A stretch of 64,000 nt of DNA from an uncultured Clostridia bacterium (GTDB taxonomy: Bacteria > Bacillota > Clostridia > Oscillospirales > Acutalibacteraceae): the NCBI GenBank assembly GCA_944412445.1, contig CALYBJ010000014.1, forward strand, positions 1 to 64,000. The letters run 5' to 3'. How positions within the stretch are numbered: position 1 is the stretch's first letter; the number at the start of each line of letters is the position of its first letter. Positions 32-9,095 of the stretch are shown here, one piece after another. The notes below the pieces were generated by a model. It saw only the letters and a list, made by a program, of their open reading frames with translations, was not told the DNA's origin and did not search any database. A program made the position numbers and the translations under genes.

Positions 32-150
32 CTTTCGGATTTCCGGGAGCCTTTTTATATCGAAAGAATTTCATAAATAATTTGTTTTTTATATCATCTT
101 CAAAGCCTTCATCTTTCGGAAGCCTTTTTATATTGACAAAAAGAATTTCA
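32..150 (+). repeat. degenerate tandem duplication of a promoter region
   Basis: Two copies of one block lie head to tail, about 32-73 and 113-150. Both contain AGCCTTTTTATAT (48-60 and 121-133) and AAGAATTTCA (64-73 and 141-150), and both begin CTTTCGGA. After each copy a similar ATATCATC string follows. Copy two carries the intact -35 TTGACA; copy one has ATCGAA at that point, so it looks like a decayed older promoter copy. No gene is seen in 1-150. Confidence 0.6.
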
Positions 151-161
151 GCTGTTATAAT
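133..161 (+). promoter_or_regulatory. sigma-A promoter of the SAM riboswitch transcript
   Basis: A perfect consensus promoter: TTGACA at 133-138, a 17-bp spacer, TATAAT at 156-161. The expected start point, near 168, falls just ahead of the riboswitch P1 helix. Confidence 0.9.
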
Positions 162-168
162 ATCATCA

Positions 169-248
169 CCATAAAGAGTGCACGAGGGACAGCCCCGACG
201 ACTGCACAGCAACCTGCTTCTGCAAGGTGCTAAAGGCTGAACGATGGG
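169..248 (+). promoter_or_regulatory. SAM-I/IV-variant riboswitch aptamer
   Basis: The sequence matches the SAM-I clan core: AGAG after P1, a P2 helix (GTGCA 178-182 with TGCAC 203-207) holding the GAGGGAC kink-turn strand, then GCAACC, a P3 hairpin closed by AAGG, GGTGCTAA and a closing CGATGG. P1 pairs CCAT (169-172) with ATGG (244-247). The loop CAGCC (190-194) can pair with GGCTG (235-239), the conserved pseudoknot. There is no P4 hairpin between the pseudoknot and P1, which points to the SAM-I/IV variant rather than classical SAM-I. Class assignment is by eye from the consensus; a covariance-model search would settle it. Confidence 0.85.
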
Positions 249-261
249 CAGAAAAAACATT

Positions 262-292
262 AACGCTTATCTGACGATGGGCGTTTTTTTTT
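262..292 (+). terminator. riboswitch-controlled intrinsic terminator
   Basis: AACGCTTATC (262-271) pairs over 10 bp with GATGGGCGTT (276-285), followed by a run of nine T. The P1 3' strand GATGGGC (243-249) can instead pair with GCTTATC (265-271), the left arm of this terminator. Sequestering GATGGGC in the SAM-bound aptamer would therefore free the terminator, so the sequence predicts a transcriptional OFF switch. Confidence 0.88.
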
Positions 293-7700: not shown

Positions 7701-9095
7701 TCATCCGATAATTATATTTTCCGAGGGCTTCATTACCGTTGACGGCGCCTTCTGCTCTGTAAATACCATTGCAAAGGACATGCTGCCGACCCGCCCGCAG
7801 TACATAAGAAGCGTCAAAACTATCTGCCCCGTAAGGTTTACTTTTCCCATGGTTCCGCATGTAAGACCTACGGTGCCTATTGCGGAAGCGATTTCAAACA
7901 ATATATCGGAAAGGGAAAGCTCCGGGTTTGAAAAGCCTATTATAATTGTCGATACAAATACGAAAACGCTGTAAATCATGGCTACCGTAAGAGCTTTTCT
8001 GATAATATCCGATTCAAGCCTTCTGCCGAAAACATTTATATTTTTTGAATTTCTTATATTTGCCCATGCGGCGATAAGAAGAACGGCAAAAGTGGTTGTT
8101 TTCATACCTCCCGCCGTGGAGCCTGAGCTTCCGCCGATAAGCATCAGTATAATATTTATAAGATCCGTAGCCTCTGTAAACTGATCGCAGGCAACAGCGT
8201 TAAAGCCTGCCGTTCTTGTAGTAACGGAAGCAAAAAACGAATTAAGGATTTTGTCGCCCAGTGACATATCCTTTAAAACATTGTTATACTCAAGAATGAA
8301 AATAAGCAGCGCGCCCCCTGCTATAAGAAAAAGACTTGTAACAATGGCAAGCTTTGAGTGAAGCTTGTATCTGCTTATTTTAAAACGGAAGCGGCAAACA
8401 TCGCTCCAGACAACAAATCCTATACCGCCTATGAAAATAAGCGCCATAATGGTAATAAGAACTACGGGATCGGATTGAAACGGCACTAAAGAGCAGTACG
8501 GCTCTATGGTGCCCAGGAGGTCAAAGCCCGCGTTGCAGAAAGCGGAAACAGAATGGAAAATCCCGAAATAAACGCCCCTTTTCAAGCCGAATACGCCTAC
8601 AAAGCGTGTGGCAAGAAGAACAGCTCCCGTCAGCTCAAACAGAGCCGTGCCGCAAACAACTCTTTTTGTAAGGGAAATAAGACCGCCTATTTGAAGAGAA
8701 TTGGTGCTTTCCTTTAACAGGCCGCGCTCCTTAAGACCGATTTTTCTTCCTATTAAAACAGAGAGAAGAGTAATAATCGTCATATATCCCAGTCCGCCTA
8801 CCTGGATAAGACCGAGAATCACCAGCTGCCCGAAAACCGACCAGTGAGAAAAGGTATCAAAAACAATAAGTCCCGTTACGCATGATGCAGAAGTGGCTGT
8901 TGTAAGGGCGTCAAAAAACGATGTCCATTCTCCCCCCTTAGATGAAACAGGCAGCATCAGCAAAAGGGTTCCTGCCATCAGCAGCAGGAAATAACCTGCC
9001 GCCACTATTTTTGTATAAGAAGACGCTATAAATTTTTTTCTTATGCTTCTGAAAAGCTTGCTGTCGCTTAATTTATCTTTGATTTCAATATCCAT
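7701..9095 (-). CDS. ktrB: Ktr/Trk family potassium transporter, membrane subunit
   Basis: A 464-residue membrane protein of the TrkH/TrkG/KtrB superfamily, made of four channel-like membrane-pore-membrane units. Selectivity-filter-like segments are visible as TSASCVTGL (near 90), SAFCNAGFD (near 205), TTRTAGFNA (near 290) and IGTVGLTCGT (near 390). It moves K+ with Na+ or H+. It pairs with ktrA immediately downstream. The ribosome site is poor; the start is chosen by homology of the N-terminus. Confidence 0.9.
   Translation of the reverse strand: MDIEIKDKLSDSKLFRSIRKKFIASSYTKIVAAGYFLLLMAGTLLLMLPVSSKGGEWTSFFDALTTATSASCVTGLIVFDTFSHWSVFGQLVILGLIQVGGLGYMTIITLLSVLIGRKIGLKERGLLKESTNSLQIGGLISLTKRVVCGTALFELTGAVLLATRFVGVFGLKRGVYFGIFHSVSAFCNAGFDLLGTIEPYCSLVPFQSDPVVLITIMALIFIGGIGFVVWSDVCRFRFKISRYKLHSKLAIVTSLFLIAGGALLIFILEYNNVLKDMSLGDKILNSFFASVTTRTAGFNAVACDQFTEATDLINIILMLIGGSSGSTAGGMKTTTFAVLLIAAWANIRNSKNINVFGRRLESDIIRKALTVAMIYSVFVFVSTIIIGFSNPELSLSDILFEIASAIGTVGLTCGTMGKVNLTGQIVLTLLMYCGRVGSMSFAMVFTEQKAPSTVMKPSENIIIG

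Follow-up and report, generated by a model that had tools for sequence, protein, structure and literature searches.

A predicted P4-less SAM-I riboswitch leader shared by unrelated, partly phage-borne orphan genes of Clostridia

RESULTS

A promoter, a putative riboswitch, and an orphan gene lie at a contig end

The DNA analyzed here, referred to as the window, is a 64,000-nucleotide stretch from an uncultured Clostridia bacterium (assembly GCA_944412445.1, contig CALYBJ010000014.1, positions 1 to 64,000). At this contig end, on the forward strand, a sigma-70-type promoter (133 to 161) is followed by a putative SAM-clan aptamer (166 to 250), a terminator with its U-tract (262 to 292), a hairpin that sequesters the Shine-Dalgarno (SD) sequence (294 to 320), and a gene for a 102-amino-acid orphan protein (family A; 328 to 636). 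A chitinase-like GH18 gene (698 to 1624) and chromosomal genes lie beside them. The promoter matches the consensus at all 12 positions (TTGACA at 133 to 138 and TATAAT at 156 to 161, with a 17-nt spacer), in agreement with the “perfect promoter” of the initial annotation, and the predicted transcription start, at about position 168, falls at the first base of helix P1. In 21 of 26 related leaders, 4 to 7 nt separate the end of the −10 box from the aptamer; thus, transcription should start at P1. Upstream of the promoter we noted an imperfect 28-nt direct repeat (82%; 41 to 68 and 114 to 141), the second copy of which enters the −35 box, and a terminator-like site at 32 to 49. Together these are possibly a duplicated promoter region.

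The aptamer is assigned to the SAM-I class and lacks P4

The initial annotation had named a SAM-clan aptamer and proposed an Rfam search, in which the SAM model RF00162 matches positions 166 to 250 with 49.9 bits (E = 4e-10), over its gathering score of 44.4. Two other matches in the Rfam scan, to snoR29 and the lysine riboswitch, scored below their own cut-offs and were dismissed as chance. In the RF00162 alignment and an alignment of 23 related aptamers, P1 consists of just 4 bp, formed by CCAU (169 to 172) and positions 244 to 247. P2 (178 to 182 with 203 to 207) leads through a kink-turn (183 to 185 and 197 to 202) into P2b (186 to 188 with 194 to 196), whose loop, CAGC at 190 to 193, pairs with GCUG at 236 to 239 to form the pseudoknot PK-1. 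P3 (208 to 231) carries the SAM-binding GCAAC and GGUG elements.

Across the 23 aptamers, 94.7% of pair cells form standard pairs, and 14 pairs covary by two-sided changes, against a mean of 5.2 in shuffled alignments. Covariation extends over P1, P2, P3, and PK-1; all four PK-1 pairs show two-sided changes and are 100% paired. The kink-turn of the window aligns without gaps to the RF00162 internal loop between P2 and P2b, and its A20 and G21 on the 5′ side and G35, A36, and C37 on the 3′ side are invariant. Also invariant are columns A6, U7, G11, C45, A46, A47, C48, U63, G64, A79, and U80 (window-sequence numbering), which we take to be the SAM-contacting core bases of the SAM-I crystal structure (T. 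tengcongensis numbering). With this core the aptamer probably binds SAM, and since P1 has only 4 bp, its affinity could be low.

The absence of P4, also predicted at the outset, is borne out by 17 consensus P4 positions that are gapped in the window's RF00162 alignment, and P4 is missing as well from every homologous leader read (24 plus three). The RNA has a P2 internal loop and PK-1 and lacks P4, the reverse of SAM-I/IV aptamers, which two sources describe as having P4 and neither of the other two elements (PMC6890682, PMC2864571). For this reason we regard it, judging from its sequence, as a SAM-I (S-box) aptamer that lost P4. Filing it as a P4-less SAM-I variant also follows from its acceptance by Rfam over the cut-off and from the P4-less leaders that precede metK genes elsewhere in the order.

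A direct repeat reflects the standard S-box switching mechanism

The initial annotation drew attention to the string GATGGGC, which indeed occurs twice, at 243 to 249 and 276 to 282, with either copy able to pair with GCTTATC at 265 to 271. The exact repeat is longer, spanning 9 nt (ACGATGGGC at 241 to 249 and 274 to 282). The first copy had been described as the P1 3′ strand, which holds for AUGG (244 to 247); G248 and C249 stand opposite A168 and C167 and are unpaired in P1. This copy also supplies the 5′ arm of a predicted antiterminator (243 to 249 with 265 to 271; 7 bp, −6.5 kcal/mol) and would thus be the switching strand. The second copy lies in the 3′ arm of the terminator (262 to 271 with 276 to 285; 10 bp, −11.8 kcal/mol), where GCTTATC is part of the 5′ arm and doubles as the antiterminator 3′ arm. 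The run of nine Ts anticipated after the terminator is present at 284 to 292. Among relatives, U-runs after the terminator are weak at two loci (L018 and L024), and none is obvious at a third (L025).

P1 and the terminator had been proposed to compete directly through one shared strand, with no separate antiterminator sequence, in a transcriptional OFF switch. The sharing is confirmed, and the OFF logic agrees with our reading; as a special feature the sharing does not stand, because in standard S-boxes P1 and the antiterminator have the P1 3′ strand in common as their switching strand (PMC3656099). A repeat is expected whenever this strand and the terminator 3′ arm have one terminator 5′ arm as their shared partner. 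It is thus a sequence signature of the standard S-box mechanism, not a new principle.

When growing transcripts were folded without ligand, the antiterminator dominated for RNA ends at 271 to 280 (P = 0.98), and the terminator took over at RNA end 285 (P = 0.96). At equilibrium without ligand the terminator wins, so the switch would depend on timing, with the decision falling in the short interval between these positions, as is usual for S-boxes. A variant arrangement occurs on the minus strand of an IMG/VR contig (L049, from about position 8383 downwards), where a module-type aptamer is followed by two successive terminator-like hairpins, each with a GATGGGC-type arm, and then by a gene for an unrelated acidic protein. 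We also considered a conserved leader peptide starting at the ATG of ACGATGGG or at one within the loop of the hairpin and rejected it by eye because the frames differ between loci.

A second hairpin is predicted to sequester the Shine-Dalgarno sequence

Separate from the terminator, GUCUUU (294 to 299) pairs with GGAGAC (315 to 320) and thereby covers the SD sequence AAGGAG (313 to 318). A hairpin of this kind, pairing CUCUUU with AAGGAG after the terminator, was predicted in nearly all of 32 folded leaders, including those of unrelated genes, and the SD was sequestered in the folds of 20 of 22 leaders. Two pairs flanking the hairpin core showed pairing beyond all 2000 shuffles across 30 leaders; because predicted folds were used to define the arms, this count is biased toward pairing close to the anchor. 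In the leaders tested by folding, SD pairing was the same with or without the terminator formed, and release of the hairpin by SAM is unsupported by the folds. The hairpin thus looks, in these models, like a second, state-independent gate, a feature that a simple OFF switch does not explain. Perhaps it blocks translation when transcripts run through from genes further upstream. Its loops (e.g., L050, L028, L044) often keep UAGGAA or UAUGG, even before unrelated genes; this motif could be a ribosome standby site or a protein-binding site.

The initial annotation placed all parts of the switch within 160 bases. The parts it listed are present there, and the SD hairpin and the orphan gene lie past position 292. 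It is this hairpin, together with the conserved orphan gene, that is the less ordinary part of the locus.

The orphan gene is consistently preceded by the aptamer

The 102-amino-acid protein belongs to no family in Pfam, NCBIfam, PADLOC, or PHROGs, where we found just scattered sub-threshold matches, and family database searches found no methionine-pathway relatives. AlphaFold2 predicts a confident small alpha/beta fold (pLDDT 88). A fold search gave no PDB match, and its only hits were uncharacterised phage proteins with a TM-score of about 0.5 at E > 0.01; we therefore read no function from the fold.

By protein sequence we found 31 family A loci in all: the window gene, a paralog in the same genome, sets of 5 and 12 relatives, one complete phage (Ruminococcus phage NatCom_28274), 8 IMG/VR contigs, and 3 from other families of the class, found after the RNA model described below was built. 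Their homes are thus bacterial genomes, one phage, and viral contigs. All 31 have a SAM-clan aptamer immediately upstream. At one locus (L021) the aptamer scores 30.1 bits in Rfam, under the cut-off, and 66.8 bits with R1, a model built including this locus. In 24 leaders read, the aptamer starts 144 to 191 nt before the start codon. Many loci are related (L033, for example, is a near-copy of L028), so these counts do not represent independent events. In the reverse direction, 9 of 11 viral stretches picked by aptamer DNA pattern alone encode family A, some of these being contigs already among the protein-found loci. Plasmid records gave no match to a family A protein, and blastn with the aptamer gave one weak match, to a Mycoplasmopsis record. 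A candidate relative from Legionella (L006) was rejected as spurious, being missed by the family HMM and without an aptamer.

Several irregular loci were also noted. In the window, the reading frame of the orphan gene continues without a stop upstream to an ATG in the P1 strand (244 to 636, 130 amino acids), and automatic annotation may therefore place a false start within the riboswitch. In two family A homologs (L024 and L025) the matched stretch is interrupted by an in-frame stop codon, so these may be copies in decay whose leader persists. L009 (401 to 490) and L012 (2458 to 2544) each contain a second module copy that has no intact family A gene after it and looks like a leader that stayed behind or lost its client.

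The leader appears to be a portable module

A covariance model from the family A aptamers (R1) was run over 394 genomes of the order. It placed the same leader before orphan open reading frames of families B (L050, L056, L067), C (L054), D (L058), F (L062, L064, L097, L098), and H (L070, L071), before a MORN-like protein (L059), and before one further open reading frame (L068). A viral contig adds family G (L043), and a genome of the window's own genus adds a leucine-rich-repeat-like protein (L125). Near-identical leaders thus precede at least eight mutually dissimilar orphan families beyond A; blastp between the families, in a comparison that covered all except L068 and L125, found no similarity at E < 0.01. 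Two leaders of family A share a mean identity of 0.786 and two from different families 0.789, and identity to metK leaders is 0.63 to 0.76. Sequence conservation thus points to a module made up of promoter, P4-less SAM-I aptamer, terminator, and SD-sequestering hairpin.

Within the window's genus, the module (87 to 102 bits) occurs in 5 of 11 genomes, and a second class of SAM switch (42 to 48 bits) in at least 9 of 11. This second class precedes metK and has P4 in all four cases read, and the metK of the window's own genome has such a separate P4-bearing SAM-I switch. In other parts of the order, P4-less SAM-I leaders precede some metK genes too; therefore, P4 loss is not confined to the module. 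On contig C11 of the window's genome (L001), an FMN riboswitch (106 bits) lies close to metK's P4-bearing SAM riboswitch (2396 to 2515 and 1501 to 1595).

Phage or viral-contig locations were recorded for L028 to L034, L036, and L037. Among these, L028 sits among phage terminase, primase, and helicase genes, L037 adjoins an integrase, and L029 adjoins a processivity factor. The paralog in the window's genome adjoins a protein resembling phage structural proteins. A literature search reaching only a minority of subscription journals found no report of SAM riboswitches in phages.

DISCUSSION

We consider it probable that the window encodes a P4-less SAM-I riboswitch acting as a kinetic transcriptional OFF switch, with a leader that serves as a module of unrelated, often mobile orphan genes. 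The RNA would start at P1. With SAM bound, 169 to 172 would hold the P1 3′ strand (244 to 247), allowing the terminator (262 to 285) to form and transcription to stop at the U-run. Without SAM, 243 to 249 would pair with 265 to 271 once these are made, delaying the terminator and permitting read-through into the 102-amino-acid gene. The second hairpin would cover the SD in both states.

That last element raises the question of whether control is mainly translational, with the SD hairpin as the real output and the terminator secondary, or with the hairpin opened by some further input, such as a protein or an upstream ribosome. The frequent SD sequestration, the covarying arms, and the recurrence of the hairpin before unrelated genes fit such a scheme. 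We nevertheless find it improbable, because SAM would not move an SD pairing that is the same in both terminator states, and because the first hairpin ends in a terminator-typical U-run in most leaders. An ordinary chromosomal S-box leader of a methionine-cycle gene, serving routine SAM homeostasis, would share the aptamer class and the logic, and P4-less SAM-I leaders do precede metK in some members of the order; we give this explanation little weight, given that the 102-amino-acid gene has no methionine-pathway relative, that the genome's own metK has its separate P4-bearing switch, and that the module is patchy in the genus and common to unrelated orphan genes and phages.

The remaining alternatives concern the target and the RNA class. 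Read-through from the same promoter could have the GH18 gene as its true target, across an intergenic gap of just 61 bp without a terminator-like site. This is very unlikely: across 31 loci it is the small gene that stays with the switch, GH18 matches elsewhere in the genus reach no more than 40% identity, and no GH18 was seen beside the switch in other loci read. As for class, the initial annotation called the aptamer SAM-I/IV-like, and assignment to SAM-I/IV or SAM-IV can appeal to the missing P4, as in SAM-IV, and to a sub-threshold RF01725 match of 32.6 bits. That match falls under the 41.1-bit cut-off, RF00634 (SAM-IV) gives no match at E ≤ 10, and the P2 internal loop and PK-1, missing in SAM-I/IV, are present, so that this assignment is largely refuted.

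Returning to the P4-less SAM-I module, our best reading of the comparisons is of a portable OFF switch, acting on transcription, for accessory genes that are often carried by phages and would be expressed at low SAM. Because the whole leader is common to many unrelated orphan genes in Clostridia and in phages or mobile elements, the window's gene is itself most likely an accessory gene of mobile origin, expressed at low SAM. More tentatively, phages and mobile elements of gut Clostridia might deploy diverse small accessory proteins through a single portable SAM sensor fused to its promoter, specifically when host SAM falls, for instance under active methylation, SAM-consuming defence, or a shortage of methionine. 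The clients might then serve to take over the host, to counter its defences, or to compete with rival phages.

The known role of SAM-I switches is to regulate methionine and SAM genes. One SAM-switch leader before at least nine unrelated orphan families, several of them in phages, would make host SAM a signal that mobile elements read. With the leader as a DNA handle, co-regulated accessory genes that have stayed hidden could be found, and the question of why a phage would care about SAM becomes directly testable. The module also suggests that an entire natural group of SAM-I switches can do without P4.

Compared with known RNAs, the window aptamer shares with SAM-I (RF00162) P1, the kink-turned P2, PK-1, P3, the core bases, the switching strand, and the OFF logic. 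It differs in lacking P4, with J3/4 merged with J4/1, in its 4-bp P1 and transcription start at P1, in the SD hairpin after the terminator, and in its orphan-gene client. It has the SAM-clan core in common with SAM-I/IV (RF01725), and departs from the published description of that class in its P2 internal loop, PK-1, absence of P4, and score below the cut-off. With SAM-IV (RF00634) it shares the lack of P4 and the presence of PK-1; unlike SAM-IV, it has no sign of P5 or PK-2, the 3′ side being the terminator, and its kink-turn is as in SAM-I. Structured regulatory RNAs carried by phages have precedents in the glutamine riboswitch of methylophage Melnitz (PMC9004378) and the manA and wcaG RNAs of cyanophages (PMC2864571). 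Those are other RNA classes from marine phages, and the available text of these sources describes no one leader module for many unrelated orphan genes.

Among phage genes, a possible parallel is to morons, accessory genes of phage genomes that carry a promoter of their own and stand outside the core operons. Most leaders here have a promoter-like site next to the aptamer, and a phage or viral location is recorded for relatives; the window copy itself lies beside chromosomal genes. Unlike in morons, a metabolite switch is built into the leader, and the new part is this portable leader together with its orphan, partly phage-borne clients.
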